Below are positions 3,222 through 64,000 of a DNA stretch of 64,000 nucleotides, piece after piece (the first letter of the stretch is position 1; each line of letters starts with the position of its first letter). Under the pieces are notes generated by a model. It did not search any database and was not told the origin of the DNA. It was given only the letters and a program-made list of their open reading frames with translations. A program made the translations under genes and the position numbers. The stretch spans positions 15,632,268-15,696,267 of the forward strand of contig CM039462.1 in NCBI GenBank assembly GCA_022414725.1, in the 5' to 3' direction. Source of the DNA: Microglena sp. YARC. Lineage: Eukaryota; Chlorophyta; Chlorophyceae; Chlamydomonadales; Chlamydomonadaceae.

Positions 3222-4571
3222 ACACCACACACACACACACACACAAACCATCAGTATGCCTACGACCACGAAAAAAAAACAACCTTTTCCTGACTGATCG
3301 CGCACAGCCCTAACAAGCGATTCCTAACACAGCCTAACAAGCGATCTGTTGCATGGTTGTAACTGTACCAAAGCTAGTCTACAGCAAACTAATGATGATG
3401 ATCTCCCTGAAAGCCCAAGCTGGTTGTGACTTAACCTAACTAGTCTACGTTGACCACAGCCTTACAAGCGATTTCTTAATGTATCTGTTGCAGGTGACAC
3501 CCCTGGCTACCTGACTGGCGAGTTCCCCGGAGATTACGGATGGGTGAGTCTGAGCAATCCCTTCCCTTAATCTACCTCAGGCTATTCCGGGTTGTTTCAG
3601 GCAATTTCGTGCTATTTCAGGCTATTTTGTTCCCTGTCTAGAGAGATCTCCATAATTTACGGAAGGGTGCATCTGAGCACCCTAGTTCCTTCCTCTAGCC
3701 CATCCCACACCCATCTGCCAGTCCTTGTCCAAAAGCATAGTCAAAGTGCTTCCCACCAACATCAGCCCCTGGCGGTGGTGGTTCGGGTGGTTTTTCAGGT
3801 GTGGCAGTATGTATGTTGAGGTTGTGTGTCCGTGGCTGTTGCGAGAGGGAGGGGAGCTTTGAAGGTAACACATCTACCTGTCAGTCCTTGTTTAAAAGCA
3901 TAGTCTTGAGAGTGTTTCAAAGCACGTAGATCCTCTCGTCCCTATCCCTGAACCTTGACCAAGAAGCTTGCCCTACCTCGAACCGATCACATGCTGGAGC
4001 TTAACATCATTTTAAATCAATAAATAGCACGCCTGATTATGAGGTGGAGGTTGAGCAGGCCAGCCCGTTTGCTTGCACTGGGGCAAACCACCTAACCATC
4101 ATTGTGATATGTTGCAATTGTTAATTTGCCTGCCACAAGCAGCAAACATGTTCTTGACTGCACTGGTAACATGGAGTATCCACATGGCATCTGCATACAT
4201 GTCTGATTCATACACCACAACAGCTTCCATACACCACATGGCATGGCATCCAGATGCACATCCGCACGACATCCGATTTGTACACCACAACAGCTTATAT
4301 ATCCACACAGCAGCCAATTTGTGCACCACAACAGCTTCTAGACATCCACACGACATCCGATTTTGTACACCACAGCATCTTAAACTTATATCGCTTCACC
4401 ATCTCCAGCTGCATCAACACAGCTCCATCTCACTTTGCAGGAGTACATACTCACACAGTACATAATCACACGCCCAGTACGTAGTCACACACACACCCCT
4501 GCAGTACATCCCGTAATCACGTGCGCTGCAGTACATCCCGTAATCACACGCCCGTAATCACAGTGCACAGT

Positions 4572-4611
<40 letters not shown>

Positions 4612-6103
4612 ACCCCACCACACACACACACGCACACGCACATACACCCTACCTCCTGTGTCTCGGGACACCGCCGGCGTCTCTGCCAACCCCTCCCCTC
4701 TCCTCTCCTCTTCTCTTCAAGTCCCCCCCCCCACCCCACCCTGCACACTTTGCCCATCCTCATATCAATCCTGTCTTACCTCAACTTCTCAGGACACCGC
4801 TGGCTTCTCCGCTGACCCCGAGACTTTCTCCAGGTACAGGACCACTGAGGTCATCCACGCCCGCTGGGCTATGTTGGGTGCCCTGGGATGCGTCGTCCCC
4901 GAGCTGCTCAAGGACTCCTTCCCCATTGCGGAGCCAGTTTGGTTCAAGGCTGGATCCCAGATCTTTTGCCGAGGGTGGCCTTGACTACCTCGGTGAGCCC
5001 CCCCCCCCACCCCCACCCCCACCCCCGGATCCTGTGTAGTCTCTCTCCTCGTCCCTCCTCCCTTACTCCCTCTTCTCCCCCCCTTCCTCCTTCCCCCCCC
5101 TTCCTCCCTCCCTCCCTCCTCCCCTCCCTCTCCCCCTCCCTCTCCCCCTCCCTCCCTCCCTCAACAAATTAAGTGCATCTGCTTGTTACCTTTTATCCCC
5201 CATCCTGGCACATAGTTTTTGCGCCCTCCCGCCTGCCCGGTACATTTGATGGATTGTTTAAAAATAATGTAGGAAAAGCCCCCTAATTTAAAAAAATGAA
5301 GGTGACTCCAATTGTGGCTCAATTCAGCATGGGTGTGGGCAGGGATAGGGATTGGGACAGCCTGGGTTGAGGGACGAGGCACCATGGCCAATCAGATCTT
5401 ACTGATGTTTCTGATTATCACTTGATTGATGCTCTTACAGGCCATGACATGCGTTCATGATGTTAATGAGTACCCCTTGACTGTCAAGCAGGCACATTCG
5501 GAGTCTAATAGGGCACCAGGAAAAATGTAATTACCACCACCACCACCATCATTATCCCAACACCATCACCATCTAAACACCTGTGTGTAGTAACCTCTGT
5601 CACCGTAATTGGCTCCACACAAGTGCAATTGTTTCAGGGTTTCGCTGTAGGATTCCCCCTGAACAACCCTGGCTCTTGTCCCGCAGCACAAGAAGAAAAG
5701 CACAAGAAAAAAATTGACTCCTGTCTCCCCTTCTCCCCCCTCAGGAAACGAGAGCCTGATCCATGCCCAGAGCATCCTCGCCATCCTGGCCTTCCAGGTT
5801 GTCGTCATGTCCCAGGCTGAGTCTTTCCGTAATGCCGGTGAGGCCCCCGGTGTTGAGGGACTTGACTCCCTGTACCCCGGAGGACCCTTCGACCCCCTGT
5901 CCCTGGCTGACGACCCCGAGACCTTCGCTGAGCTGAAGATCAAGGAGATCAAGAACGGTCGCTTGGCTATGTTCTCCATGTTCGGATTCTACGTCCAGGC
6001 CATTGTCACCGGAAAGGGACCCCTGGAGAACCTGTCCGAGCACTTGGCCGACCCCGGCGTCAACAACGCCTTTGCCTCCGCCACCAAGTTCACCCCCCTG
6101 TAA
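2458..6103 (+). CDS. LHCB: Light-harvesting chlorophyll a/b-binding protein (LHCII type), 4 exons
   Basis: Chloroplast thylakoid antenna protein that binds chlorophylls a and b and carotenoids and delivers excitation energy, mainly to photosystem II. Exons: 2458-2593, 3494-3543, 4793-4992, 5745-6103, all with GT/AG introns. The product is about 247 aa, a normal LHCII length. A basic Ser/Ala-rich N-terminal transit-like segment is followed by [15 protein letters not shown] and [14 protein letters not shown]. Helix B carries [14 protein letters not shown], helix [15 protein letters not shown], and helix [16 protein letters not shown] (chlorophyll-ligand Glu/His/Asn and Arg residues). The C-terminus is ASATKFTPL. 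One extra T in a T run near 4963-4966 (ATCTTTTGCC) shifts the frame and makes a premature TGA at 4982-4984; without it the frame runs on exactly. This is either a sequencing error or a real null allele. Codons strongly prefer C or G at position 3. Introns 1 and 2 carry decayed copies of the adjacent splice junctions. Confidence 0.95.
3190..3245. repeat. Poly(C) plus (CA)n in LHC intron 1
   Basis: A run of about 17 C residues passes into (CA)n dinucleotides. It is intronic and non-coding. Confidence 0.9.
3303..3350 (+). repeat. Decayed copies of LHC intron 1 acceptor region
   Basis: Two stretches, TAACAAGCGATTCCTAACA and CCTAACAAGCGATCTGTTGC, resemble the sequence just before the true exon 2 acceptor (CCTTACAAGCGATTTCTTAA then CTGTTGCAG at 3465-3493). 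They look like partial tandem copies of the 3' splice-site region left inside the intron. Confidence 0.5.
3640..3694 (+). repeat. Decayed copy of LHC exon 2 donor junction
   Basis: TTTACGGAAGGGTGCATCTG, continuing AGCACCCTAG, aligns with the true exon 2 end plus donor ATTACGGATGGGTGAGTCTG, continuing AGCAATCCC, at 3533-3561. The copy lies about 125 bp downstream in intron 2 and its donor is mutated (GTGCAT for GTGAGT). Confidence 0.55.
4200..4380. repeat. Imperfect ~50-bp tandem repeats in LHC intron 2
   Basis: The block CACCACAACAGCTT recurs near 4213, 4283 and 4325 together with CCACACGACATCCGATTT-like blocks. Intronic, degenerate, no coding function seen. Confidence 0.6.
4573..4637. repeat. 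Poly(C) tract plus CA repeats in LHC intron 2
   Basis: About 38 C residues, then CACCCCACCA and (CA)n. Same type of C-rich tract as at 1597 and 51724. Confidence 0.9.
4651..4695 (+). pseudogene. Partial copy of LHC exon 3 start within intron 2
   Basis: TCTCGGGACACCGCCGGCGT, continuing CTCTGCCAACCCC, aligns with the true acceptor plus exon start TCTCAGGACACCGCTGGCTT, continuing CTCCGCTGACCCC, at 4787. It reads DTAGVSANP against DTAGFSADP. The acceptor AG is mutated to GG, so it should not be used. The copy is separated from the real exon by a pyrimidine-rich stretch. Confidence 0.75.
5041..5163. repeat. Pyrimidine-rich CTCCC repeat, LHC intron 3
   Basis: An almost pure C/T tract of CCCTCC-type units in the third LHC intron. 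Confidence 0.85.
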
Positions 6104-33270: not shown

Positions 33271-33750
33271 ATCTGGACTACCCTGCCCTCAACTTTTCCA
33301 GCCTGAAAATTTACTATGAACCAAACAACCCAACTCAAACTATCATTATAGACCTACCTACCCACTCTTACTCACAATGCTACCGACTCCTCAGACCAGA
33401 TAGTTCTTACAGACCAGATGGATCTTACAGACTCCTCACAACTTCAACAACTTCTCTCAGACCTTCCACACCCTACAGATCACATTCACCCTGCAGATCC
33501 TACAGAGCCCCCAGCTCCTACAGAAACTGTAGACCTTGTCTCTGATGATGAGGAGCCTCCCAAATCTAAGAAACCTAAAAAGAACCTCTACCCGTTGCAA
33601 CCCTACTTCCCTCCACTCAAACTCTACACATAAATCACCGACCACCAAAAACACACCCAGGGATACAACTCAAACCTCCCAAGACTAACCTTCCTATCCC
33701 TACTAGACCTGCCATACCCGACAGCAACAAGATGCGCCAGAGCAGGATCT

Positions 33751-39823: not shown

Positions 39824-40098
39824 CACCTAACCTTACACAAGGTATCACCTCTAACCTGCCCACTAGCTGCCACCTTGGCCAACACCCTCTTAAAGGGATT
39901 TATGCAACCACCTGGGCTGATAACACTCCCCACCAACTTCCTCATGCAAGTAACAAATTTTGGACCTCAACCCTTATCCAACATAAAACTAAATTCCACA
40001 CCCTTAAAGCCCGCTGGGGTAGACTGTGGAACCGTAAACTTGCATTCCGCTGGAAACTCCCTTATATTACAACCACTCACCCACCCACGAACTCCCTA

Positions 40099-45484: not shown

Positions 45485-45597
45485 ATATAGTTGACTGACG
45501 TTGGTCTGTCCTTAACGGCAGACCTATGCAACGATAACTCTGGAAATGGTCGAGAGACGGTTGCCGAAAGAGGTTGGTGGTTAGAATGCCTGTACAA

Positions 45598-46105
45598 ATA
45601 GTAGGGTGCCCGGGCGGGTCACCTGGAGGTCGGCCCTGGGGCTCGTGCATCGTACTGGGAGAGGCAGGCAATAAGGTTGCAGTAACGGGGGCGATTAGCT
45701 ATTGACCCTATTGTATGCATTCAGTTATGGGCTGTGCAGGGTCGGAATACACGGGTAACGATGATGGGTGCTGAGTTGGGATGCCACTTATGAAGGGCCG
45801 TTGTGCGTGAGGGAAAGAAAGTAATGAACGGCGATGGGTAGAAGGAGTAGAGGGCGCCTAGAGTCAACCGGGTCCCGGGTACGGAGGGAGGGTACGCGGT
45901 ACGAGCGTACCTGAAGAAAAGCAGGGAAGTTTGGTAAAGTCGTTATACATTGCATTACAGGCGAACTTTCGACCGGTGGTCTCGGCAGGTTTCGCCATGT
46001 TGAACCTATGTATTGGTGGTTTCGGCAGTGGTTTCGACGAATCCCGGCGATTTCGACATTTCAACAACCGTATTGTGCTTTCGATGCATATATGTCTGGC
46101 TGCCT
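45598..46105. mobile_element. Dispersed ~500-bp repeat, copy 1
   Basis: Matches 52391-52854: AATAGTAGGGTGCCCGGGCG, CCTGGAGGTCGGCCCT, ATGATGGGTGCTGA, AGGGAAAGAAAGTAA, GGGTCCCGGGTACG, GCTGCCTTCGGGCCGACCA. GGTCGGCCC near one end and GGGCCGACC at the other are inverted. Family unknown. Confidence 0.6.
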
Positions 46106-46742
46106 TCGGGCCGACCAAAGGAAGGTATTCCGCCCAGAAATCGTCGAAAAGAGGTTGGGATTTCCGTACATGCGGTTAAATCGGGGATGAAAATCATGTT
46201 ACAGAATCCAGAAAGCAATATCTGGTCTACGAGACAATTTTTGATCCGATTTTGCTTTCGATTTTGCTTTAGATCTCAACCAAGATGAAGGTGTAAAACT
46301 GTTTGTTTTCAAGTCTGAAAGCTGTAATACTTTTGTACTGAAGACAATTGTTTACAGCCCCCAAAGCACAGATGCCTTACAAAACTGCACGCTATCAAAA
46401 AAGAACACTTGCCTTTGAAAATCTGCGCGTGCAGCTGCGCACCAGTTTTTTTAATTGGTGCGCTTTTTTGGTTGCGGGAGCTGCATGACCTGCTGGGAGC
46501 TGGAGGGAGCTGAGAGCTGGGTACTTCCATTGACCAAATTGGCCAGCGCTTTAGCGCACTTGAACACACAAAAACTGCGCTTTCTAGGGCAAAAAGCGCA
46601 AAATTGCTTGCTGCGCCCACAGGGTGTTGCAAAAGACTGCGCGAAACGCGCAGTGGGGCTCAAAAAGGCAGTGCGCCAGCGCGCAAAAGCGCGCGCTTGG
46701 AAGTATCCTGGCTGGGAGCAGGGAGCTGCCTGGAGAAGGGAG

Positions 46743-49080: not shown

Positions 49081-51722
49081 ATGACTGCGAACATGGATTG
49101 GGAGCTCATCAAGTCGGAGCTTTCGGCGACCACGAAGCAGAAGTTACATGGTCTAGAGTCCCTCGCGGTGCGCTGCTATTTATTATCCTTGAACAGCTGT
49201 CCACCTTCCGCTCCCGTCGCATTGCATTACTCTCGTAATGTGACAGCGCTGAATGGCGAAATCTCGCACTGTTCAAACCTGCATTATCGTTAAGTCCCCC
49301 TTGACCCCGTTACGTTGGGAAACCAGGATAATGCAAGCATCATCATCATTATCATCATCACCACGTATTGCATCCTCGCCTGCAGGCTATTTGCGATAAG
49401 GAGCCTCTACATATCGACCTGACATTGGAGTTCGTCGACCTCGTGCCTGCCCTTCTGCAAGACAACAACTATAAGGTGGGCTAGGCGTCCATTGCACTGC
49501 GTTGTCATAGACAGGCCACCATTCACCCAAGACAACCCTCCGCCACAGTATCTAGGATGAGAAGGGCTGTGGGGGGAAGGAGGGCTGTGGGGTGGGTGTG
49601 GGGGTTGGGGGGCCAGAAGACCCCCTGACCCCCCCCAAAGAATACCCCACCTTGGATAACAGGGTATGTGGGGTGTGTGGAGTCAGGTGTGTATGGGGGT
49701 GTCTTTCTATCATTCTCCAATTGACGTTCATGGAGTAATTTACCAACAGCAATTATAAGGACGAGTGCTCAAGGATGTGTCAGCTCAACAAACCACTCGG
49801 GAAATTGCACGTAAATTTGTTTACATAGCTCCAGCCAGCAATTCGGCCTTCATTGCATGGCGACGCATGGTATTGGCTCTGCCCCCTGACCCCCCCTGGG
49901 TCCGCGCTTTACCATGCGCTCCGCCATGCGATGGCTAAGCAACAATCCTGAAATCAGGCTTGAGTAGCCCGAGTAGCTACTCAATCTGGCCTACATAAAT
50001 TCCAGCCCGTGAATATACAAGCATGCAAAAACTATCATCTATGTGTGACAAGACAACACCGTCAGATGAGTAGGGATGCCAGTATGGTACTGGTCCCCAA
50101 GATTTCAGGCAAAATATTCTATGACATCGCACGATGCATTGTACAATGTACTGATATATTGTACAATATGATATATCATATGATATCGTTAATACATCGT
50201 ACAATATATGTATGCAGTAATGTACTTGAAAAAGTAATGATAACGCCTGTTGGGGCGTGGTATTCAGGGAGCCTCGTCTGACGGTGGTAGAGAACAGGCT
50301 GCTACTTTCTTAGACAAAGCTACCATGGCGGTTAACGGCAACATGATGTACCAGACAACCCTAATTTAAAGACAGAGACACTAATGCCTTTTGTTTGCGC
50401 CAACTAGATACTATGCCAAGCTTGGTAGCAGTAGCTTTATAGAAATTGTTGGTAAGGCGCATTTGGTTACCCACATTGACAGCACATGGAGCATATTCTG
50501 CTGGTAGCACAGGCCAACAATATTCCAGCCTGTAAATATGCAAACATGCACATAATGATTCATGTATGACATAAAACATGGCCACACGGAACATATTCTG
50601 CTGGTAGCACAGGCCAACAATATTCCAGCCTGTAAATATGCAAACATGCACATAATGATTCATGTATGACATGAAACATGGCCACACGGAACATATTCTG
50701 CAGGCAGCACAGGCCAACAATATTCCAGCCTGTAAATATGCAAGCATGCACATAATATGATTTATGTATGACATATAACTAGGGAACGGCAATAAGATAT
50801 TGTATGATATCTTGTCATCACATGATTCTGGCAGTCTGACGAGGCTAAAGCTACCATTTATATAACAATATCATATGATGCAGTTTGTGTGATATCATAT
50901 GATATCATACTCGCCTTTGGTCGACATCATACGATATGCCGGTCCCTACATACAACGAGGCCACCTGGCACATGTCCTGCAGGTAGCACAGGTATCCTTA
51001 TTAGTGTAATTGTACATGTCCTGCAGGTAGCACAGGTATCCTTATCAGTGTAATTGTACATGTCCTGCAGGTAGCACAGGTATCCTTATTAGTGTAATTG
51101 AACATGTCCTGCAGGTAGCACAGGTATCCTTATTAGTGTAATTGTACATGTCCTGCAGGTAGCACAGGTATCCTTATTAGTGTAATTGTACATGTCCTGC
51201 AGGTAGCACAGGTATCCTTATTAGTGTAATTGTACATGTCCTGCAGGTAGCACAGGTATCCTTATTAGTGTAATTATACATGTCCTGCAGGTAGCACAGG
51301 TATCCTTATTAGTGTAATTGTACATGTCCTGCAGGTAGCACAGGTATCCTTATTAGTGTAATTGTACATGTCCTGCAGGTAGCACAGGTATCCTTATTAG
51401 TGTAATTGTACATGTCCTGCAGGTAGCACAGGCCACGCTTCAGCTACTGTCAGCCATCATCACACGAGAGGGGGAAGGCGTGAGAGCATATACAAGCTCT
51501 ATCTTGCCCATGGTGGTAAGTTAGTCATATTTCTAAGAAGGACCCCCCCCCCCCCCCCCCATCTTCAGAAAAGCCACAAAATTTATCAAATGCAAGTTAA
51601 TTAATAAAAAAAAAACGGCTACACTTCAGCTATTATCAGCCATCATCACACAAGAGGGAGAAGGTGTGAGAGCATAGACAAGCTCTATCTTGCCCATGGT
51701 GGTAAGTCAAATTTCTAAGAAG

Positions 51723-51760
<38 letters not shown>

Positions 51761-52225
51761 ACACCCCTTATCTTCAAATAGAGTCACAAAAATAATATCT
51801 AATGCAAGTTAATTAATTAACAACAGCTACACTTCAGCTACTATCAGCCATCATCACACAAGAGGGAGAAGGCGTGAGAGCATAGACAAGCTCTATCTTG
51901 CCCATGGTGGTAAGTGACATTTCTAAGAAGACCCCCCCCCCTCCCCCCCCCCCCTCATTTTCAGAAAAGTCACAAAATTTATATTAAATGCAAGTTAATT
52001 AATAAAAAAACGGCTACACTTCAGCTACTATCAGCCATCAGAGCATAGACAAGCTCTATCTTGCCCATGGTGGTAAGTGACATTTCTAAGAAGAATCCCC
52101 CCCCCCCCGCACACACACCATCTGCCCCCCCCCCACACCCCACCCATCACACACCCCCACCACACACACTCACATCCACCCACCCACCCATCCACCCACA
52201 CAATCTGCTCCACCCACCCACCCAC

Positions 52226-52263
<38 letters not shown>

Positions 52264-55200
52264 ATCTGCCCCCCCCCCCATTTTTGAAGTGACATAAGTT
52301 ATAACATAAACAAATTCATTAATTAATAACGGCTATGCTTCAGCTACTATCAGCCATTATCACATGAGAGAAAGAAGGCATAAGAGCATAAATAGTAGGG
52401 TGCCCTGGTGGGTCCCCTGGAGGTCGGCCCTAGGGCATGGCGTCGTACTGGGAGAGTCGGGTTATAAGGTTGTAGTAACGGGGGCAGTTAACTATTGTAT
52501 GCATTCAGCTCTGGCTATGAAGGGTCGGAAAAGACGGGTAGCAATGATGGGTGCTAATTTGGGATGCTATTTATGAAGGAACGTTGTGCGTGAGGGAAAG
52601 ACAGCAATTAACGGCGATGCGCATAAGGTGTAGATGCCGCTTCGTGAGTTGAGTCCACTGGGTCCCGGGTACGTAGTACCCGAAGAGAAGCAGGGAAGTT
52701 CGGTAAGGTCGGGGTCGTAAGGTCGTCCCTTATACATTTGGCATTACAGATGAAATTTTGTCTGGTGGGTTCGGCAGTGGTTTTGCCACTTCGACACTTC
52801 GAACAAACGTATTGTGGTGTCGATGCATAGGTCTGGCTGCCTTCGGGCCGACCAACAAGCTCTATCGTGCACATGGGCAGAAGTAAAAAAAACTAGTTTT
52901 TAAATAATAAGTCACAAAAGAAATGACAAATGTAAATTGATGAATTTAAAACGGCCACGCTTCAGCTTCTATCGGCCATCATCACACGCGAATAGGTTGT
53001 AAGAAAAAGGTAGTGATAACGCCTGGTGGGGCGTGGTGTTAAGGGAGCCCGTCGTACGCAGGTGGGGAGCGGTCTCCTACCTCAACTGGACAAGCTACCA
53101 TCGCGGTTGATGACGACCTGCAACGCCAAGAGCGACCGAAGGGGGAGTCGAACCCCCGACTCTTCATTCTTTAGCGATCTGGTCTACCACTAGACCATTG
53201 TATAGGTTGTAAGAGCATATACAAGCTCTATTGTGCCCATGGTTGTAGCTCAGGTGGAGCGGCTTGCTGCCAACCAGTGCGACAACAGGCATATAATGTT
53301 GTTCCAAGTATGCATGGTGCCATCCCCATTATACAAAAATTACTTAGCGGTGGTCTCGATAGCATTCTTTGATATCCCTCAGGTGGATTGGCTTGCTGAT
53401 GCACGGCAACAGGTGCGATAAAAGGCTTGTGATGTTATTCTAAGTATGCATGGGGCCATTTCTCCATCAGTTACAAAGCATACAGCATCGATCTCAACAT
53501 CACTGTTGAATTTCCCGATAGGTGTAGAGCTCAGTGTTTTTAATTTCAGATTTCTGTAGTCCAGGTTGAGTAGCTACTTGGGCTACTCAACCCTGAGTTC
53601 AGGATATTTGCGTAGCCATCGCATGGCGGAGCGCGAAGCGCGGAGCCTGGGGGGGTCGGGGGGCAGCGCGTCCCGATATCGGGGGGTCCGGGGGATGTAG
53701 CATTCTACGGAATGGCGACGGAATGGCGACGCGTCGTCGAAAAATAAAACACTGGTAGAGCTTGCTGCCAACAAGTGAGACAAGAGGCTTGTGACATGCT
53801 GGCGTGCGGCTAAGTATGCTGGGAGCCATTCCCCATCATTAAGACAACATATAGCATTGGTCTAAATAGTTGTATTGTTTGATTTCCCCCAGGAGGAGAG
53901 ACTTGCTGATGCGACAAGAGGCTTGTGACGTGCTGACGTGCGGCTAAGTATGCTGGGAGCCACCCCCCCTAATTTTGACAATATATAGCATTAGTCTCAA
54001 TAGCATCCTTTGTTTCCCCTCAGGTGGGGAGACTTGCTGATGCACGCCAGCAAGTGCGACAAGAGGCTTGTGACGTGCTGCTAAGTATGCTGGAAGCCAT
54101 AACTCCATCGTTTGTGCTTGAGAAGATGAGCCGCTTTTGGTCCCACCGGCATTGGAAGGTGCGCACACTAGAAACAAGCTGGTGGTGGTGTGGGATTGTG
54201 TCCAGGGGCACGTGGGTGGTGGTGATGGTGGTGGACGTCATACAGTTGAGAAGATGAGCCGCTTTTGGTCCCACTGGCATTGGAAGGTGCGCACACTACT
54301 TCGGTTGGGTTTTGGGTGTGGTTGGTGGTTGGGTGTGGTTCGTTGGTGATTGTGTGGGGTTGGGGGTGATGGGGTGGTGGTGGTGGCGACGATGGAGCCA
54401 GCAGACATGCCAAAGGGTGGTGTGGTTGTTGGTGATGGGTTGTGAACAGTACTTATGACTAGTTTTTCTTTTTAGCTGCAAGCAGCAGCTTCTAGGCAGC
54501 TCCACCAGCTCTCTCTTCATCCAAACCTTAAGCAACACAGTGCACCTGGAAACATCGTGCACACTGTATCTGATACTTGCCTGCCTTGGGAGAGGCATCG
54601 ATCTATATAGAGATAGATCTATATAGATCTATATTGGCGAAGCTGGATTTTTGAAAATCGGCATAGGGCACCTTACAAAAATCAAAATCTGGTTTTACAA
54701 TTATGGCATAGGGCACCATATCATATCGCAGGCGCTTCGACTAGATTTTCCGGTGTCTATCTGATGTAACTGCATATGTTGTAGATATACACAATATATC
54801 TATTTGCTATATATCTATATCTTATTATATAAAGTAGCGCGAGGGTTTAGTGCGTGGTTTCAGGGCATTGGTTTCTTTGGTTTCGGATCTCGATTTTCCG
54901 AGACCTGTCGCAGACGTGGCCACGGGGGTCCTCCCGTCGGTACGACGGGCTGAGATGCTAGTAGATCTATATTTTTGGGCAATATGGATCTATTTCCGCC
55001 CCCTAGGTACTTGCTCGGCCCATACGAAGTTTGCTCATTAGAAATACGGCAGACGTCATCTCGGCTTCATTCAAGTCTTAGGGGGTCTACCCTAACAGGT
55101 CTACCATGGGTGGTACTAGCAAGTGGCCGGTACTTGGATGCATGGAGTTGGAGTTTTTGAACTGGGAAACATTTTGATGCATGAAAGTTTTTCAGTCATC

Positions 55201-55292
55201 GGTTCCTAGAACTCATTTTGGGGAACTACGATATCTACACGAGAACTACATGGGCGGTACTGGCAAGTGGCCGGTACTTGGATGCAAAAAGG

Positions 55293-55334
<42 letters not shown>

Positions 55335-58300
55335 CCCGCCCCCCCCCCACACACTCTAATACTAGGTGGTTGCTCCCCCTACAGGTTGTTATTCTTCGCA
55401 AAAAAAGTCAAGGACGCGTTTTTTAGTCATGGGTTCCTAGAGCTCATTTTGGGGAACTATGATATCTACATGAGAACATGCCACTGTGGTAGAGCAACTT
55501 GCACCTCACACCTTACAAGTAGCACCTCACCTCACACCACCACCAGCATCATCACCGCGGTCATCACCACCACCACCACCACCATCATCACCATCACTCA
55601 GGCTGCCGATGAGCCCCCCAGTTGGTGCAACACAAAACCTAGAACATGCCCAGGTAGGGCGTTTCGTAGACAAAATGACCCCCTTCCGATCAATTCGGGT
55701 CAATTTATTTTCTTTCTTGAAAATATTTTGAAGATTAGGTAAACCATATTCCCGGAGCTGGTCCCGATTTGAGAAGGTCACTTTTGTCTACGAAACGCCC
55801 TACTAGGTGGGTATGGTGGGGGTTGGTGAGTATGGTGGTATGGTGGTGGTGGTGGGTATGGTGGGGGTTGGTGAGTATGGTGGTGGGTATGGTGGTGGTT
55901 GGTGAGTATGGTGGTGTGGTGGTGGTCCTGGGTATGGTGGGGGCTAGCCTAGGGTATTTTGGGGTACTGTACTAGATATCGCGCAATATTTGTGTTTAAG
56001 CTGGTGGAGGTTGATGAGTATGGTGGGTATGGTGGTGGGTATGGTGGTATGGTGGTGGGTATGGTGGTATGGTGGTGGGTATGGGGGAATGGTGGCGGGT
56101 ATGGTGGTGGGGGTGGGTATGGTGGGGGTGGGCAGTAGGATGTTCACGTACCTGGACGTGCTCAAACTAAACAGCATGATATGATATTCTTGGGTGCTGC
56201 ACAACCTACTCACATATCAAGCAGTGGTATTCATTAGGGTATCCCCTTTCAGTGATATACATTGGTCTAGTGGTAGACTAAATCACTTTCAGAATGAAGA
56301 GTCGGGAGTTCGACTCCCCCTTCGGTCGCTCTTGGCGTTGCAGGTCGCCGTCAACCGCGATGGTAGCTTGTCCAGTTGAGGTAGGAGACCGCTCCCCACC
56401 CGCGTACGACGGGCTCCCTTAACACCACGCCCCACCAGGCGTTATCATAACCTTTTTTCATGTGGACCGTACAGCACATTGCACATTTTTGGTGTGTGTG
56501 CTGTAGTAGGATATCGACACACCTGGACGTGGTCAAACTAAACACTTTTTCAATGCAACTACTGGTTTCAGGTATTCTAAGATTTTCTGCCGTACAAAAC
56601 ATTGCACACAATTTTGAGTGTATGCTGTAGTAGGACATTGCCACACCTGGGCGTTGCCAAATTAAGCACTTTTTCAATGTGACTTCGGGTTCCAGGTATT
56701 CTAGGATATTCTGGGGTACCGTGCGAAACATTGCACAATAGTTATGTGTTGTCCGTAGTTGGACATTAACACACATGGGCGTTGTCGAACTAAGCGCTCT
56801 TTTCAATGCGACTGCAGGAAATGCTTCAACATGGAATCCTTTAGACCATTGCCAAGGCGGTGTCAAACTGACACTTTTTCAATGCAACTGCAGGTTTGAC
56901 ATGGAATCCTACTGACCATTGCACACTATTTGTGTGTGTTAAGTAGCAGGACATTGACGTGCCAAGGCGGTGTCAATCTGACACTTTTTCAATGCAACTG
57001 CAGCTTCGACATGGAATCCTACTGACCATTGCACACTATTTGTGTGTGTTATGTAGCAGGACATTGACGTGCCAGGGCGTTGTCAAACTAAGCGCTTTTA
57101 TCAATGCCCCTGCAGGTTCGACATGGAATCCTACAGACCGTTGCAGAGGCAGTGTCAAGAGGAACACCCGGGCTGCTATCTAACAAGGACCAAAACAGCT
57201 ACCTCATCACCCAAGTGATTAATTTGGTTGAAGATCCCAACGAGTGAGTGCTTGTGCTAGTGCTTGTACGTACTCGTCTATACGCCTGTAATGGTCTGCA
57301 ACCTTCCAAAGGCCAAAACAACTACCACATCAAACAAGTGGTTAATTTGGTTGAAGATCCCAACCAGTGAGTGCTTGTGCATGTACTTGCATGCGGATGT
57401 CCATGTGTATGTAATGGTCTGCTAGCTTCCAAAGGCCAAAACAACTACCTCATCACATTATTGGTAAATTTGGTTGAAGACCGCAACGAGTGAGTGCTTG
57501 TGCTAGTGCTTGTACGTACTCGTCTATACGCCTGTAAGGGTCTGCAAGCTTCCAAGGGCCAAAACAACTACCTCGTCACAGAAGTGGTTAATGTGGTTGA
57601 AGATCCCAACCAGTGAGTGCTTGCTGAATATTTATAAGCTATTTCTCGTCCCATACCTGTGCGAGTCTTATACCTACACCTATACCTATACCTATACCTA
57701 TTCCTATACCTATACCTATACCTTTATCTATAACCCCCCCACCCGCCCCCCACCCCCACACCTATCCACCCTCTAACCCCACATCACCCACCCTACCCCA
57801 ACCCCACCCTTATCCACCCCTCAACCCCACCCGCCCCACCCCACACCCGACCCCTATCCAACCCCAACCCCACTCCTATCCACCCCCAACCCCACCTACC
57901 CGCCCTCACCCCCCTACCCCCCCCCCCCCTGCCCCCTGCCCCCCCTACCCTCAGGACTGTGCGTGATGCTTCCCTGGACTGCTTTCAGGAGATGAAACAT
58001 GGCTTTGGGTGAAGCCCTAGTTGAGGACCTGCGTCACCAAGCCCCCCCCCCCACCCTATCCGCCCTCTGCCCTCTGCCCCCCTCCCCCTCAGGACTGTGC
58101 GTGATGCATCCCTGGACTGCCTTCAAGAGATGTACATTGCATTAGGTGAAGCCCTAGTTGAGGACCTGCGCCACCAAGCCATCCGCCCCACCCCACCCCC
58201 ACCCCTATCCACCCCTCAACCCCACCCCCAACCTCCCCGGCCCCCTGCCCCCCTCTCCTCAGGACTGTGCGTGATGCTTCCCTGGATTGCCTTCAAGAGA

Positions 58301-58570
58301 TGTACATGGTTTTGGGTGAAGCCCTAGTTGAGGACCTGCGCCACCAAGCCATCCGCCCAGCCTCCATGAAGGAAGTCATCATGCGGCTGGATGAGCATAG
58401 CCCGACAAACATGGACTTGCCTGATGTGAAATCTGGGACCGGAAGTACGCCTACTTCGAGAAAGACCACCAAGGACAACGTGGCCACGCCACATTCCCAT
58501 GCACAGGACTGTGATGTTGCGCTATACGATGTGGACCAAACCGCGAAGAGGGCTGTCGCAGCTAAGCGTG
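49081..58570 (+). CDS. CLASP: CLASP, N-terminal TOG domain (6 exons, continues beyond)
   Basis: CLIP-associated protein that binds microtubule plus ends and tubulin through HEAT-repeat TOG domains and promotes microtubule rescue. Exons: 49081-49167, 49386-49475, 51423-51515, 54024-54158, 57116-57243, 58263-about 58570, all GT/AG and in phase, giving about 281 aa. Helical repeats in order: MDWELIKSELSATTKQKLHG; LTLEFVDLVPALLQDNNYK; VAQATLQLLSAIITREGEGV; ILPMV-VGRLADARQQVRQEA; VLEKMSRFWSHRHWK-VRHG; SYLITQVINLVEDPN; TVRDASLDCLQEMYMVLGEA then LVEDLRHQ. These follow the CLASP TOG1 pattern (LLxDxNxRV; VERLxDxKxxVRxxA; W-x-VRE; VRExAxxCIEEMY-x-G). A linker follows (KSGTGSTPTSRKTTKDN). The start ATG is in good context (AACACCATGA). 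The end of exon 6 at donor GTCAGT is tentative. Introns are filled with tandem copies of the splice junctions, listed separately. Confidence 0.85.
49860..49980 (+). repeat. Dispersed inverted repeat, copy 1
   Basis: TGCGCTCCGCCATGCGATGG then CTAAGCAACAATCCTGAA and GTAGCTACTCAA are the reverse complement of 53575-53650. It lies in CLASP intron 2; the partner lies in intron 3. Confidence 0.6.
50231..50335 (-). mobile_element. SINE, 3' fragment (diverged)
   Basis: ATGATAACGCCTGTTGGGGC followed by GGGAGCCTCGTCTGACGG and AAGCTACCATGGCGGTTAAC aligns with the 3' part of the SINE at 53004-53201 (minus strand). The tRNA-like head is absent. Confidence 0.6.
50483..50780 (+). repeat. 100-bp tandem repeat carrying exon 3 acceptor-like sites
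   Basis: Three units at exact 100-bp spacing (GGTAGCACAGGCC at 50503 and 50603, GGCAGCACAGGCC at 50703), each with TATTCTGC(T/A)GG(T/C)AGCACAGGCC. The true CLASP exon 3 acceptor and start is CCTGCAGGTAGCACAGGCC at 51416-51434. These look like earlier copies of that junction. Confidence 0.7.
50780..50948. mobile_element. MITE with TAGGGA(A)CGGCAATA ends
   Basis: Starts TAGGGAACGGCAATA and ends TATGCCGGTCCCTA, imperfect inverted termini. The interior is rich in ATATCATATGATATCAT palindromes and CTCGCCTTTGGTCGACATCA. Same family as 59224-59404. Confidence 0.65.
50971..51422 (+). repeat. 44-bp minisatellite of decoy exon 3 acceptors
   Basis: Ten units at exact 44-bp spacing (50971, 51015 ... 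51367), the eleventh start (51411) leading straight into functional exon 3. Each unit contains TGTCCTGCAGGTAGCACAGG, that is the acceptor AG plus the first nine exon bases (GTAGCACAG), then TATCCTTATTAGTGTAATTG. Units are almost identical, so the expansion is recent. Confidence 0.9.
51516..52310 (+). repeat. Tandem ~200-bp copies of CLASP exon 3 with donor and poly(C)
   Basis: After functional exon 3 (51423-51515) three copies follow at 51616-51700, 51823-51909 and 52010-52072 (internally deleted). Each begins GGCTACACTTCAGCTA, keeps CTTGCCCATGGTGGTAAGT, and is followed by a poly(C) tract (51543-51560; 51724-51760; 51931-51955; about 52098 onward) and an AAT-rich spacer. Each has lost the acceptor and first codons, and TAT to TAG (GCATAGACA) gives a stop. 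They are pseudo-exons. Confidence 0.8.
52330..52879 (+). pseudogene. CLASP exon 3 copy 5, split by an insertion
   Basis: GGCTATGCTTCAGCTACTAT continuing to AAGAGCATA (52390), then resuming ACAAGCTCTATCGTGCACAT at 52855. About 464 bp of foreign repeat interrupts the copy. It is non-functional. Confidence 0.7.
52391..52854. mobile_element. Dispersed ~460-bp repeat, copy 2, inside pseudo-exon
   Basis: Homologous to 45598-46105. It begins AATAGTAGGGTGCCCTGG and ends CTTCGGGCCGACCA. Because both flanks are exon 3 sequence, the insertion borders are well defined. No clear TSD or coding region. Confidence 0.65.
52950..53246 (+). pseudogene. CLASP exon 3 copy 6, split by a SINE
   Basis: GGCCACGCTTCAGCTTCTAT continuing to CACACGCG before the SINE, resuming AGAGCATATACAAGCTCTAT after it. 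It retains TAT (no TAG stop) and the 5' GGCCACG of the functional exon, so it is closer to exon 3 than copies 2-4. Confidence 0.7.
53004..53201 (-). mobile_element. tRNA-derived SINE with 12-bp TSD
   Basis: On the minus strand: A-box-like TGGTCTAGTGGTAGACC, B box GGGTTCGACTCCCCC in a perfect T-arm, then a body (CGGTCGCTCTTGGCGTTGCA ... ACCACGCCCCACCAGGCGTT) and a T-rich end. ATAGGTTGTAAG flanks it at 52992-53003 and 53202-53213. It is inserted in a pseudo-exon. The D-arm and T-arm are tRNA-like, but the acceptor and anticodon stems are not, so it is not a working tRNA gene. Confidence 0.8.
53254..53975 (+). repeat. Tandem copies of CLASP exon 4 acceptor and start
   Basis: Copies at 53254 (GTGGAGCGGCTTGCTGCC), 53383 (GTGGATTGGCTTGCTGATGC), about 53754 (TAGAGCTTGCTGCCAACAAG) and 53894 (GAGGAGAGACTTGCTGATGC), each preceded by a CAG or AG in a pyrimidine context where intact. 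They run to about AGTATGC(A/T)GG-GCCAT, then diverge. Functional exon 4 follows at 54024. The copies carry small indels and stops. Confidence 0.75.
53575..53745 (-). repeat. Dispersed inverted repeat, copy 2
   Basis: Reverse complement of 49860-49980 (CCATCGCATGGCGGAGCGC). Adds a GC-rich part with GGGGGGTCGGGGGGC. In CLASP intron 3. Confidence 0.6.
54244..54296 (+). repeat. Copy of CLASP exon 4 end with donor
   Basis: GAGAAGATGAGCCGCTTTTG then GTCCCACTGGCATTGGAAGG and TGCGCACAC repeats 54118-54170 with one change. It lies about 75 bp after the functional exon, the donor-side arrangement. Confidence 0.9.
54463..54590. mobile_element. MITE fragment (CAGCTTCTAGGCAGCTCC family)
   Basis: GTTTTTCTTTTTAGCTGCAA then GCAGCAGCTTCTAGGCAGCT matches the left half of the elements at 764 and 988. 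The right end is not evident. Confidence 0.5.
55080..55480. repeat. Tandem duplication with poly(C), CLASP intron 4
   Basis: GCAAGTGGCCGGTACTTGGA occurs at about 55119 and 55265, and GGTTCCTAGA(A/G)CTCATTTTG at about 55200 and 55431. A C-rich run of about 50 occupies 55287-55347. Confidence 0.75.
55655..55802. mobile_element. MITE, TA target, 26-bp TIRs
   Basis: The left GGGCGTTTCGTAGACAAAAT and the right end (reverse complement GGGCGTTTCGTAGACAAAAG) are near-perfect TIRs, flanked by TA on both sides. About 144 bp. TA duplication suggests a Tc1/mariner-type non-autonomous element (inference). Confidence 0.75.
55803..56140. repeat. GGTGGGTATGGTGGT simple repeats, CLASP intron 4
   Basis: Irregular GGT/GGTAT repeats in two blocks, similar in base composition to the large array at 59605. 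Confidence 0.8.
56261..56458 (+). mobile_element. tRNA-derived SINE, + copy
   Basis: TGGTCTAGTGGTAGAC, GAGTTCGACTCCCCCTTCGG, the same body as the copy at 53004 and the same ending GGCGTTATCATAACCTTTTT. No clear TSD. The B box is slightly altered (GAGTTCGACTCC). Confidence 0.75.
56470..57115 (+). repeat. ~110-bp tandem copies of CLASP exon 5 acceptor and start
   Basis: Repeating AACTGACACTTTTTCAATGC, AACTGCAG, then (T)TCGACATGGAATCCTACTGA and CATTGCACACTATTTGTGTG. Acceptor AGs end at about 56817, 56893 and 57003 before the functional one at 57115. Older, more diverged units run back to about 56470. The copies have TACTGACC where exon 5 reads TACAGACC, giving a stop after six codons. Confidence 0.85.
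57300..57620 (+). repeat. ~120-bp tandem copies of CLASP exon 5 end and donor
   Basis: After functional exon 5 (donor at 57244), three copies of CCAAAACAACTACC...GTTGAAGATCCCAACCA+GTGAGTGCTTG occur at 57306-57373, 57433-57500 and 57550-57618. Each ends in an intact GTGAGT donor. The flanking spacer repeats TGTACGTACTCGTCTATACG. Confidence 0.85.
57660..57735. repeat. (TATACC)n microsatellite
   Basis: About 12 TATACC-type hexamers, followed by a C-rich pyrimidine tract (57735-57952) in CLASP intron 5. Confidence 0.9.
57955..58180 (+). repeat. Two tandem copies of CLASP exon 6 start with acceptor
   Basis: CCTCAGGACTGTGCGTGATG starts copies at 57955 and 58093 before the functional exon at 58263. 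Both run to CACCAAGCC (about 88 bp), including CCCTAGTTGAGGACCTGCG. The first has an extra A (GATGAAACATGG) that shifts frame; the second stays open. C-rich intron (CCCCTACCC) precedes each. Confidence 0.85.
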
Positions 58571-59115
58571 GTCAGTTCGGTGGGGGTGGGGTGGAGGGTG
58601 TTGGGGTTGGGACAGCTTCTCTAACATGGTCAGTTGGGTGGGGTGGGTTTGGTGGTCGTTTGGGTTTGGTGGTCGTTTGGGTTGGGTTGTCAGTTGGGTT
58701 GGGTTGGGTGGGTGGGTCAGTTAGGTGGGGTGGGGTGTGTTGGGGTTGGGACAGCTTATCTAATATGTTCAGTTGGATTGGTTTAGGTGGGTTTTATTTG
58801 TGTGGGTCTGTTTGGGAGTACAAACTGGCCACTTGGGTTTTACTTCTTTGTTTGGGAGGGAAATGTGGTCCATTTATTTAGGTTGGATTTGTTTTAATTT
58901 GGGCCATTGGGCAAGCATGAGCAGCTTTGTTTTACTTTTGGGCCATTGGGCAAATATGAGCAGCTTTGTTTTAATTTGGGCCATTGGGCAAGCATGAGCA
59001 GCTTTGTTTTACTTTTGGGCCATTGGGCAAACGTGATCAGCTTTGTTTTACTTATGGCCAGTAGGCGGACATGATCAGCTTTTAATTTGGGCCAATGGGC
59101 AAACATGGTCAGTTT
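58571..59115. repeat. GT-rich and GGGCCATTGGGCAA repeats after CLASP exon 6
   Basis: GGTCAGTTGGGTGGGG-like units (58570-58770) resemble the presumed exon 6 donor GGTCAGTTCGGTGGGG repeated. Then a ~39-bp unit GGGCCATTGGGCAAGCATGA+GCAGCTTTGTTTTACTTTT recurs at about 58901-59110. Confidence 0.75.
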
Positions 59116-59223
59116 TTCTGGCGGCTCTGTGTTTTGTTTTGCTGTTAATCCATCATGCATGCCTGTGGCTATGCCTGTAACTCATCATGCATGCCTGTAG
59201 CTATGCCTGCCAACACACCTACA

Positions 59224-59404: not shown

Positions 59405-59604
59405 CACCTACCTGGGCTTTTTCTTTCAAATCTGAAAGTTTTTTTTCTAGCTTTATGGATTTTTGCTTCCTCCAGGGACAGCGTTAAGTGCTTTATATAG
59501 TTTTTATATCCTTTCATAGCTCTTTAGGGCCATTTAGGTGTGTGTGGAGGGAACTTGTGTTATCATTACCATGACCAGAAACGGTGACACCGGTGACTGG
59601 TACC

Positions 59605-62600
59605 GGTGGTGACATGGTGTGGTGGTGTGGTGGACCATGGTGGTGGTGGTATTGGGTGGTGGGCATGGTGGTGGTGGTCTTTTGTGGTGGTGACCATGGT
59701 GGTGGTGGTATGGTGGTGGTGGTGTGGCCATGGTGGTGGTGGTGTGGTGGTGACCATGGTGGTGGTGGTGGTGGTGGTGGGTGGTGGTGGTATTGGTGCA
59801 TGGTGGTGGTGGTCTTTTGTGTGGTGACCATGGTGGTGGTGGATTGGTGTGGTGGGCATGGTGGTGGTGGTCTTTGTGTGGTGGTGACCATGGTGGTGGT
59901 GGTATTGGTGGTGGTGGGCATGGTGGTGGTGTTTTGTGTGGGTGACCATGGTGGTGGGTGGGTATTGGGTGGTGTGGGCATGTGGTGGTGGTGGGTCTTT
60001 TGTGGTGGTGACCATGGTGGTGGTGGGTATGGTGGTGGTGGCATGGTGGGTGGTGGTGTGGTGTGACCATGGTGGTGGTGGGTATTGGTGGTGGTGGGCA
60101 TGGTGGTGGTGGTCTTTTGTGGTGGTGACCATGGTGGTGGTGGGTATTGGTGGTGGTGGGCATGGTGGTGGTGGTCTTTTGTGGTGGTGACCATGGTGGT
60201 GGTGGGTATTGGTGGTGGTGGGTGGTGGTGACATGGTGGTGGTGGTCTTTTGTGGGTGGTGGTGACCATGGTGGTGGTGGGTATTGGTGGTGGTGGGCAT
60301 GGTGGTGGTGGTCTTTTGTGGTGGTGACCATGGTGGTGGTGGGTATTGGTGGTGGTGGGCATGGTGGTGGTGGTCTTTTGTGGTGGTGACCATGGTGGTG
60401 GTGGGTATTGGTGGTGGTGGTGCATGGTGGTGGTGGTGGTGTCTTTGTGGTGGTGACCATGGTGGTGGTGGTATTGGTGGTGGTGGGCATGGTGGTGGTG
60501 GTCTTTTGTGGTGGTGACCATGGTGGTGGTGGGTATGGTGGTGGTGGTGGTGGTGGTGGTGGTCTTTTGTGGTGGTGACCATGGTGGTGGTGGGTATTGG
60601 TGGTGGTGGGCATGGTGGTGGTGGTCTTTTGTGGTGGTGACCATGGTGGTGGTGGGTATTGGTGGTGGTGGGCATGGTGGTGGTGGTCCTTTTGTGGTGG
60701 TGACCATGGTGGTGGTGGGTATTGGTGGTGGTGGGCATGGTGGTGGTGGTCTTTTGTGGTGGTGACGCATGGTGGTGGTGGGTATTGGTGGTGGTGGGCA
60801 TGGTGGTGGTGGTCTTTTGTGGTGACCATGTGGTGGTGGTGGTATTGGTGGTGGTGGGCTCACCATGGTGGTGGGTGGGTGGTGGGCATGGTGGTGGTTT
60901 TGGTGTGGTGACCAGTGTGGTGGTGGGTATGGTGGTGGGCATGGTGGTGGTGTCTTCTTGTGGGTGGTGACCATTGGTGGTGGTATTGGTATGGTGGTGG
61001 TGGTCTTTTGTGGTGGTGAGGTCGCATGGTGGTGGTGGGTATTGGTGGTGGATGGGTGGTGGTTCTTTGTGGTGGTGATGGTGGTGGTGTCTTTTGTGGT
61101 GGTGACATGGTGGTGGTGGGTATTGGTGGTGGTGGGCATGGTGGTGGTGGTCTTTTGTGGTGGTGACCATGGTGGTGGTGGGTATTGGTGGTGGTGGGCA
61201 TGGTGGTGGTGCGTCTTTTGTGGTGGTGACTCTATCGGTGGTGGTGGGTATGGTGGTGTGGTCGGGGTGGCAGTGGTGGTGACCATGTGGTGGTGGGTGG
61301 TGTGGTGAGGGTATTGGTGGTGGTGGTGGCTGGTGGGGCTGGTCTTTTGTGGTGGTGAACATGGTGGTGGTGGGTATTGGTGGTGGGCATGGTGGTGGTG
61401 GGTGGTGGTCTTTTGTGGTGACCGCATGGTGCACCATAGGGTGGTGGTGGGGGGGTCTTTTGTGGTGGTGATTGGTGGTGGTGGTGGCATGGTGGGTGGT
61501 GGGTTTTTGGGTGGTGGTGGCATGGTGGTTGGTGGTTTTGTGAGTGGTGACCATGGTGGGTGGTGGGTTATTGTGGTGGTGGGCATTGGTGGTGGTGGTG
61601 TCTTTTGTGGTGGTGACCATGGTGGTGAGTGGGTATTGGTGGTGGTTAGAGAGCCATGGGTGGTGGGCATGGTGGTGGTGGGCATGTGGTGCGTGGATTG
61701 AACATGTGGTGGTGGTGGTGGCAGGTGGTGGTGGTTCTTTTTGTGGTGGTGACCATTGGTGGTGGGTGGGTATTGGTGGTGGTGGGGTACATGGTGGTGG
61801 TGGTCTTTCTGTGGTGGTGACCATGGTGGTGGTGGGGTATTGGGGTTCTGGGCATAGGGTGGGTGGTCTCTTTTTTGTGGTGGTGACCATGGTGGTGGTG
61901 GGTATTGGTGGTGGTGGGCATGGTGGTGGTGGTCTTTTGTGGTGGTGACCATGGGGTGGTGGTGGTTATTGGTGGTAGGTGGCGGGTGGTGGTGGTGGGT
62001 GTGGTCTTTTGTGGTGGGTGGGACCATGGTGGTGGGGTATTGGTGGTGGGACATGGCGGTATGGTGGCGTGGTGAAGCTGGTGGTGGTATGGTCTTAGTG
62101 GTTGGGGGGTCCTGGTGGTGGTCAGAGCATTTGGCATGGGTGGTGATGTGACATGGTGGTGGGTGGTATGGGGTGGTGGTGTGGTGTCGGTTTGTGGGGT
62201 GACATGGTGGGTGTGGGTATTGGTGGTGGTCGGGCACTTTTGGGGTGGTGGTCTTTGTGTTGGTGGTGGGTACTTGGTGGTGTGGGTATTTGGTGGTGGT
62301 ATTGGGGTGTGGGCAGTGGTGGGCATGGTGGTGGTGGTGGTGGGTATTGGTGGAAGGTGGCCTGGTGTTGGTCTTGTGGTGGTGACACAGGTGGTGGTGG
62401 TGACTGGTGGGCATTGGTGGTGGTTGTGCATGGTGGTGGTCTTTTTGTGGTGGTGGTACCATCTGGTGGTGGTGGTATTGGTGGTGGGCGATTGGTGCGA
62501 AGTGGTGGTGACGGTGGTGTGGTTAGGCATGGGTGGATGGTGGTGGTGGGAGTAGTATTCTTTGGTGGTAGTGATCGACATAGGTGGGCCCACTGTGGCG

Positions 62601-63995
62601 GTGTGGCCATGGTCGGTCTTTTGGTGGTGACATATGGTGGTGGGTGGTCTCGGTGGTGGGGCATGGTCGGTGGTGGTTTTTGTGGTGGTGACTATGATGG
62701 GTGGTGGTGGGTATTGGTGGTGGTTGGCCATGCTGGTGGTGGGGCATGGGGCTCGGTGGGGTGGTGACATAGGTGGTGGTGCAGGTGGGCGATGGTGGTG
62801 CTTTTGTGGTGGTGACCAATGTGGGTGGTGGGCAAGTGGTGGTGGTCTTTTGTGTGACCATGGTTGTGGTCGGGTATTGGTTGGTGGGATGGGGCATGGT
62901 GTGGTAGGGAGGTGGTGGGCTTGTTTTGTGGACCATGGTGGTGGCCGGACCATAGGGGTCGGTGTGATGCTTGTGGTGGTGGGCACCATGGTGGTGGTGG
63001 GTCTCCTGTGTGGGGTCAGGAGGGTGGTGGTCTGTTGTGGTTCGGTTGCCCTATGTGTGTGGGGGATGACATCTGGGTTTGGGCAATGGTGGTGCTTTTG
63101 TGGGTGGTTGGGGTTTTATTGTGGTGTGACCCTCGGTTTTGGTGGTGGTGGTGACTTCATCGGTGGAGATGGGTGGTGGTCGTCGGTTGGTGGTGGGCAT
63201 GCTTTTGTGTAGGTATTGGTGGTGGTTGGTGGGTTGGTGTTTTTTGTTTGGTATGGTAGTGGTTGGTGGTGGTGGTCTTTTGTGGTGGTGGTGCGTCTTG
63301 TTTGCTGGGTAGGCATGGTTGGTGTGGTGTCTGATTGGTTGGGCATGGTGTGTCTTTGGGTGGTGACCATGGTGGTGGTGGGTAATGGTGGTGGTGGATG
63401 GTGGTGGTGTCTTTTGTGGTTGGAGGTGGAATGGTGGTCTTTTGTGTGGTGACATGGGTGGTGGTATGTGGGTGGTGGGGTCTTGTCTTTTTGGTTTTGG
63501 TATGTGGTGTGGTCTTTGTGGTATGGTGTGGTGGGGGTGGTCATGAGGTCTTTTGTGGTGGTGACCATGGTGGTGGTATTGGTATGGTGGTGGGGGCATG
63601 CGTGGTTGGTGTCTTTGTCCTTTTGTGTGGTGACATTGGTGGTGGTGGTGGGGGCATGGTGGGTGGTCTTTTGTTGTGGTGGTGGGTATTGGTCTTTGTG
63701 GTGTGAATGGTGGGTTTTGTGGTGGTGACCATACGGTGGTGGTGGGTGTGGTGGGTATTGGTGGTGGTGGGCATGGTGTGGTGGTCTTTTTGTGGTGGTG
63801 AGCATGGTGGTGGTGGGTATTGGTGGTGTGGGCATGGTGGTGGTGGTCTTTTGTGGTGGTGACCATGGTGGTGGTGGGTGCGTGTGGTGGCATGGTGGCG
63901 GTGGTCTTTTGTGGTGGTGACCATCGGGGTGGTGGGTATATGGTGGTGGTGGGCAGGGTGGTGGTGGGATTGGGTGGTGAAATATATGTGTACAT
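59605..63995. repeat. 4.4-kb G-rich minisatellite, 62-bp unit
   Basis: Unit about GGTGGTGGTCTTTTGTGGTG+GTGACCATGGTGGTGGTGGG+TATTGGTGGTGGTGGGCATGGT (62 bp), some 70 imperfect copies, most regular at 60070-61240 and degenerate toward both ends, reaching the window end. Strongly strand-asymmetric (G/T on +). It has almost no stop codons, so very long His/Pro/Thr-rich ORFs appear on the minus strand (one of 982 codons), but these are repeat artefacts. It probably lies in a CLASP intron or beyond the gene. Confidence 0.95.
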
Positions 63996-64000
63996 GGTGG

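Follow-up and report, generated by a model that had tools for sequence, protein, structure and literature searches.

Intron growth is usually attributed to transposons. Internal gene duplications, which arise within a gene and take in introns or their borders, were reportedly described by Gao and Lynch (2009), and the locus analysed here appears to share this character, its duplications lying within one gene and taking in introns and borders. In the potato RdRp gene, one tandem duplication crossing a boundary produced a new intron, according to the part of the article available to us (Ma, Lan and Niu 2016, PMC4974935). The same part of that article gives intron gain by tandem duplication of AGGT exon segments, with Rogers (1989), vertebrate ATP2A1 (Hellsten 2011) and fission yeast as its examples. 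In Mesostigma viride, introns were lengthened by repetitive elements, as stated in the available sections of a further article (PMC6947507). Here we analyse a CLASP gene of the green alga Microglena sp. YARC whose introns carry many copies of the gene's own splice junctions, and which represents, in serial form, the boundary-crossing duplication already known. As in potato RdRp, tandem duplication runs over an intron-exon border and copied splice signals lie inside intron sequence; the potato case, as far as that part of the article describes it, was a single event yielding a new intron, whereas in CLASP many events lengthened existing ones. As in AGGT intron gain, splice sites are supplied by local duplication, but the unit there is exonic (again in the available part of PMC4974935), whereas the CLASP unit comprises both intron and exon and the intron existed beforehand. 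The purely exonic unit of the Rogers scheme was not found in CLASP: its units consist either of a pyrimidine tract with the head of an exon, or of the tail of an exon with the head of an intron. A literature search, covering mostly open-access articles by title and start of abstract, returned no report on introns serially tiled by their own junctions.

The window, by which we mean the whole 64,000-nucleotide stretch analysed, comes from a genome assembly of 568,105,699 bases (~568 Mb) in 2390 contigs and holds the start of the CLASP gene, namely its first six exons, and one LHCB gene, both on the + strand. Joined in frame, the six CLASP exons encode 280 amino acids with a TOG domain, which is related to CLASP TOG domains (best PDB match 6mq5, a CLASP TOG, E 2.5e-21, followed by 4g3a and 5nr4; domain match PF21041, E 2.5e-16). 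Exon 1 (49081..49167) has an open frame and a GT donor and joins to the TOG-domain protein. It is followed by intron 1 (49168..49385, 218 bp), in which no junction copies were found, and by exon 2 (49386..49475), for which no copy of either the acceptor or the donor border was found. Exons 3 (51423..51515), 4 (54024..54158) and 5 (57116..57243) are supported by the six-exon join and the TOG match, and exon 6 (58263..58570) by the six-exon join. The EukProt model P0001 agrees in all exons but for two details: its exon 2 ends at an earlier donor, so that 11 residues are missing, and its end is three residues longer. Its name resembles GeneMark output, and it was hence not counted as RNA evidence. 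The junction copies described below sit inside existing introns of the six-exon model, and these introns are common to the (predicted) EukProt model. Downstream of exon 6 lies a very long TGG-rich array (59600-64000), and the following 10 kb (locus L009) are mostly of low complexity when scored in windows. CLASP exons following exon 6 were not found in the TGG-rich stretch, in L009 or among the open reading frames of the loci L010 and L011, inspected by eye.

Each CLASP junction was scored by aligning a window of 35+35 bp with the adjacent intron and expressing the result as a z value relative to 100 dinucleotide shuffles. Junction-spanning copies were detected in the adjacent intron at 7 of the 11 splice borders (z 17-32): the acceptors of exons 3, 4, 5 and 6 (z 18, 20, 23 and 17, respectively) and the donors of exons 3, 4 and 5 (z 25, 19 and 32). 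All seven alignments cross the junction itself, so that at these borders CLASP shows direct repeats over an intron-exon border of the type described by Ma et al. (2016). No reliable copy was obtained for donor 1, acceptor 2, donor 2 and donor 6 (z -0.3, -0.2, -0.2 and 2.1); the candidate at the exon 6 donor, which the copy scan had given as spanning, matched only a GGTTGGG-rich stretch and was rejected as low complexity. The copies have a polarity: acceptor matches lie upstream and donor matches downstream, the largest wrong-side z being 7 (exon 3 acceptor). Reverse-complement scores stay close to the shuffle level, with a maximum of about 2.6 standard deviations (donor 5).

The copies, all on the + strand, are distributed over introns 2 to 5. 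Upstream of exon 3, three 100-bp units (50483..50782) carry a decayed version of its acceptor, two of them reading CTGCTG followed across the junction by GTAGCACAGG and the third CTGCAG followed by GCAGCACAGG. Closer to the exon, a 44-bp unit repeated 10.5 times (50970..51432; TRF and self-BLAST) reproduces the exon 3 acceptor as CTGCAG followed by GTAGCACAGG; the last unit fuses with the real exon and the AG is intact in the 10 upstream units. These units are near-identical (98-100% by self-BLAST), and their number could be affected by assembly. The 44-bp unit can also be read as CTGCAG, GTAGCACAG, GTATCC, that is, as a possible 9-nt in-frame microexon (VAQ) extending from acceptor to donor, present ten times. 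Downstream of exon 3, three donor-side copies (51617..52098) begin at about the tenth exon base, retain GTAAGT and have an in-exon TAG in common. Two older copies (52287..53253) are each split by an inserted element, one by a dispersed repeat (52390-52855, resembling 45596-46118) and the other by a SINE-like element (53004-53204), and the six alignments on this side amount to five copies, two of them split; exon 3 copies start without the first 9 nt of the exon. Two exon 4 acceptor copies follow at 53254..53475, the first of which adjoins the last exon 3 copy with a gap of about 9 nt (GTAGCTCAG, within 53205-53254). With this spacing almost no original core of intron 3 remains, which could result from deletion or from an ancestral intron that was very short. 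Another two acceptor copies of exon 4 (53745..54023), one lacking the AG, adjoin the real exon, and a young copy of the exon 4 donor (54246..54300) was recovered by junction score, scan and alignment. Exon 5 is preceded by six acceptor copies (56135..57115) in units of about 110-124 bp, of which the first is weak (62% identity); this stretch also contains a SINE-like element (56256-56457). Three donor copies (57293..57640) in a 123-bp unit follow the exon. The tree of the four exon 5 donor sequences joins copy 2 to the real site and pairs the other two copies, 1 and 3, with each other (support 0.95); this topology suggests that the real junction was included in a duplication for a second time. 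Two exon 6 acceptor copies (57895..58182) occupy units of 138 and 170 bp.

These data sustain much of what the earlier note had described and correct part of it. Acceptor-side copies are indeed found upstream of exons 3, 4, 5 and 6. Of the donor-side or whole-exon copies that it had placed after exons 3, 4 and 5, the donor-side ones are present, whereas whole-exon copies are not: none of the seven families contains a complete exon with both splice sites, and each crosses one border. Its estimate that nearly every border is affected was too high, the count being 7 of 11, and the copies are not junction-centred, for the exonic part of the unit varies from about 0.23 (in the 44-bp unit) to about 0.68. 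They are ordered in the geometric sense, acceptor copies lying upstream and donor copies downstream, whereas identity drops only loosely with distance. The many decoy splice sites that it had pointed out do exist: of the 25 acceptor copies, 19 still have their AG, and of the 9 donor copies, 8 still have their GT. This retention, together with the in-frame VAQ segment between AG and GT in every 44-bp unit, would be expected if the copies were under selection as splicing regulators or alternative exons. Without the ten young 44-bp units, however, AG is kept in only 9 of 15 copies, which we estimate to be about neutral at roughly 80% identity. Moreover, three exon 3 copies have a stop in common, one exon 6 copy bears a frameshift, and the copies lack one of the two splice sites, so that a function of this kind is very improbable.

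We next consider what fills the introns, on the basis of families, tiling masks and unit lengths drawn by hand from self-BLAST, a search for dispersed repeats that compared the gene with the remainder of the window, and a copy scan, the duplication breakpoints being blurred by decay. In this hand-drawn tiling, junction copies account for 3938 of the 8431 bp of introns 2-5 (47%) and are the largest single class, with shares of 45, 58, 28 and 75% in introns 2, 3, 4 and 5, respectively. The rest is made of dispersed elements (1721 bp, 20%), simple repeats (890 bp), intron-only duplications (242 bp) and unassigned sequence (1640 bp), the last representing only 3% of introns 3 and 5, and 28% and 33% of introns 2 and 4. 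CLASP introns thus contain dispersed elements, as do those of M. viride, but differ in that their largest class consists of junction copies, a comparison made with the available sections of that article (PMC6947507). The SINE-like element at 53004-53204 (- strand) is inverted relative to that at 56256-56457 (+ strand) and 93.6% identical to it, and a third, partial copy (77%) lies at 50224-50345. Its head looks tRNA-derived by eye; ARAGORN reported no tRNA, and Rfam gave no match at gathering thresholds. The copy at 53004-53204 has a direct repeat of 13 bp on either side (52992-53004 and 53202-53214), which is what an insertion would produce. A foldback-like element occurs in intron 2 (49876-50000) and, in the opposite orientation and 85% identical, in intron 3 (53550-53669). 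Elsewhere in the window, two long segments that are related to each other and lie about 22.6 kb apart (7105-16000 and 29744-40500) contain reverse-transcriptase-like frames, and we take them to be probably two LINE copies.

A false duplication of short stretches during assembly is scarcely credible as the source of this pattern. Indel errors are plausible in this assembly, as the LHCB gene of the window illustrates with an apparent frame break in exon 3 near 4965. The copies, however, differ from the real site by 9-39% (61% to 91% identity in the aligned families), dispersed elements have inserted into them, one with its 13-bp flanking repeat, and the same pattern recurs at several unlinked loci.

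The frequency with which the repeats cross a border would depend on the length of the introns in which they arose. If nine complex units were placed at random with introns of today's sizes, about one crossing would be expected; seven of the nine complex families were observed to cross a junction (binomial P about 4e-6, or 0.0016 with nine simple-sequence arrays counted as misses), a count in which copies of conserved exons remain detectable for longer than purely intronic copies. Taken at face value, this excess favours a process in which junctions are duplicated preferentially, for example by way of RNA-DNA hybrids formed during transcription, breaks linked to the spliceosome or repair templated by RNA, as does the count over both genes of the window (9 of 17 junctions at z>6 vs 11.6%, P 4e-5). 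We simulated tandem duplication without any junction preference, with units of 44-186 bp, nine founding families and 600 runs per intron length, rejecting exon-only and multi-border events. At least seven of the nine families crossed a border in 97% of the runs with starting introns of 100 bp, in 84% at 150 bp, 45% at 218 bp, 11% at 300 bp and 0.2% at 500 bp (P 0.0017), and in not a single run (600 per length) from 1000 bp upwards. Since the simulation reproduces the pattern from short introns without preference, short ancestral introns would suffice to account for it; under this model, it is short ancestral introns that the CLASP pattern needs, not a preference for junctions. Two further observations speak against preferential duplication of borders: the position of the junction within the unit varies, and purely intronic repeat families are present (55061-55477 and 58888-59116).

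We then compared junctions with their surroundings. Of 2924 window-sides in ten 10-kb loci taken arbitrarily, 20.5% have a local copy at z>10, with individual loci ranging from 0 to 59%; the corresponding figures are 7.6% for the window outside both genes and 32.8% for CLASP's own window-sides. Repeat coverage of junctions was not used as the main statistic because the copies themselves raise the background inside CLASP to this last value. The 7 of 11 duplicated CLASP junctions have a P of 0.0023 against 20.5% and of 0.035 against CLASP's own 32.8%; against the 8.3% of the remaining window P is 6.6e-6, for a locus that was picked for its repeats. Low-complexity windows were excluded from the backgrounds (98 of 1289 in the LHC set described below, elsewhere those at or over the cut). 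CLASP is therefore denser in junction copies than background.

The LHC family served as a further sample. The genome contains 118 LHC matches, about 21 of which were listed by eye, non-exhaustively; 15 loci (ten, then five) were chosen in which the coding matches are spaced by about 500 bp or more, with repeats disregarded, and their borders were predicted from protein alignment and splice consensus. The background, 12.4% at z>15 and 17.2% at z>10, was taken from 1765 window-sides more than 100 bp off any junction in the first ten loci and applied to all 15. In the first ten loci 34 junctions were scored, and 6 of them have an own-side copy at z>15 (P 0.24 vs 12.4%; the first acceptor of L038, which has no scorable flank, is absent from the 34); in the next five the figure is 2 of 20. 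The total of 8 of 54 gives a P of 0.35, and at z>10 the total of 10 of 54 (6 of 34 and 4 of 20) gives a P of 0.45 vs 17.2%; the duplication rate of these predicted LHC junctions is hence close to that of their local background. At least one same-type copy at z>15 occurs in 6 of the 15 loci; the copies of L029, L033, L034 (first acceptor) and L036 were displayed in sequence. Wrong-side z values do not exceed 5.5 in the first ten loci and reach 7.9 and 9.0 in L049, whose first predicted exons are doubtful; its junctions (z 14 and 11, under the z>15 cut) were retained among the 20. Seven further LHC paralogues, fetched for the intron comparison below, have a copy at 1 of 16 scored junctions (in L040). 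Junctions are thus not duplicated more often than other windows in the LHC loci, CLASP alone being above background, and we consider a mechanism directed at borders unlikely.

Within the window, the LHCB gene (exons 2459-2593, 3494-3543, 4793-4992 and 5745-6103) has a donor-side copy of exon 2 at 3633..3701 (z 11 to 17) and a weaker acceptor-side copy of exon 3 at 4648..4693 (z 4.7 to 6.8; BLAST E 0.056), both on the + strand; taken alone, its 2 of 6 junctions are not significant (P 0.15). The apparent break in exon 3, at about 4965, amounts to one base and may represent an assembly error or a pseudogene; the EukProt entry P0099, apparently the same gene, likewise departs from the family in exon 3. 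The LHCB intron 2, which contains the clear donor copy and the weak acceptor copy, is 1249 bp long, whereas the corresponding intron of the paralogue L039 (identity 95% in the last exon) is 377 bp long, with no copy at four junctions. Similarly, an intron of L029 measures 1285 bp and contains acceptor copies directly upstream of the real acceptor, whereas that of its relative L046 measures 313 bp and has none. In both pairs the copies are thus found only in the longer intron, which is consistent with growth by duplication. We infer the ancestral intron length, for which these two comparisons of present-day paralogues are the direct support. Copies do not simply follow intron length: L034 has a copy in an intron of only about 360 bp, whereas L031, L032, L035 and L037 have introns of more than 1 kb without copies at the tested borders. 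The related genes L033 and L034 both carry acceptor copies upstream of the same exon, in differing arrangements, and these copies may be older than the duplication of the genes themselves. A microhomology noticed at the unit ends in L029 was rejected, the upstream word belonging to an older, shorter copy, and a similar one at CLASP exon 6 could not be pinned down in the C-rich flank.

The paralogues also bear on whether the introns were gained rather than lengthened, whole introns having arisen by tandem duplication of AG/GT exon segments, as in the Rogers scheme, or of one border, as in potato RdRp. Intron 3, with exon 3 and exon 4 copies only about 9 nt apart and almost no unique core, is what such an origin would leave. 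The gap is equally explicable by deletion, however, the copies contain pyrimidine tracts and intron flanks, so that the introns predate them, and the two compared paralogues have shorter introns at the same positions, not absent ones. A gain of whole introns is accordingly quite improbable.

The reading that we favour, with a probability of about two in three, is ordinary short direct duplication across single borders in a gene whose introns were initially short (up to about 220 bp). Replication slippage and break repair are the usual candidates for such duplications. Short direct duplications (44-208 bp), which would be common genome-wide, would repeatedly have crossed single exon-intron borders, with slippage or repair as the mutational step. 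After each event the intact exon would still have been spliced, as only it has the full length, an acceptor and a donor; the extra half-exon and half-intron would have become intron, which would thereby have grown by one unit while the protein remained unchanged. Where a duplication lay within an exon or comprised an entire one, it would have altered the protein and been lost. As long as introns did not exceed about 220 bp, the majority of duplications that were tolerated would have to cross a border, and no attraction to splice sites would be needed. A duplication crossing an acceptor would leave the intact exon as the last copy and one crossing a donor would leave it first; the order and polarity of the copies would follow from this geometry of tandem duplication and from selection for one intact exon, without any ordering process. 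Later on, copies would have been amplified, would have decayed and would have been interrupted by dispersed elements. The decoys would be ignored through exon definition, no copy pairing both splice sites around an exon-sized segment.

This growth model is based on the copies, their polarity, the sampled background, the simulation and the two paralogue pairs. With regard to the earlier note, the observation itself is confirmed and the interpretation partly supported: intron expansion through local duplication across exon-intron borders holds, as does the rejection of exon shuffling, whereas the idea of a process acting on the boundaries as such finds no echo in the LHC junctions. The alternative that it had named, that repeats do not prefer junctions, is where the LHC data point, in a sample of 15 loci that all belong to a single gene family and whose junctions are predicted. 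We propose more tentatively, as a possible extension in which we have limited confidence, that serial border duplication is the main non-transposon source of long introns genome-wide, introns consisting of the ends of their own exons, and that the spliceosome routinely passes many intact decoys, only the real exon pairing an acceptor with a donor.

Most of two CLASP introns and large parts of two others can be traced to the gene's own borders. As the same kind of event is found in other genes and differs between paralogues, one route of intron growth that does not involve transposons becomes directly countable. The copies also constitute a naturally occurring collection of recently duplicated acceptors and donors, nearly identical in sequence to the real sites, which bears on how splice sites are chosen beyond the site itself.
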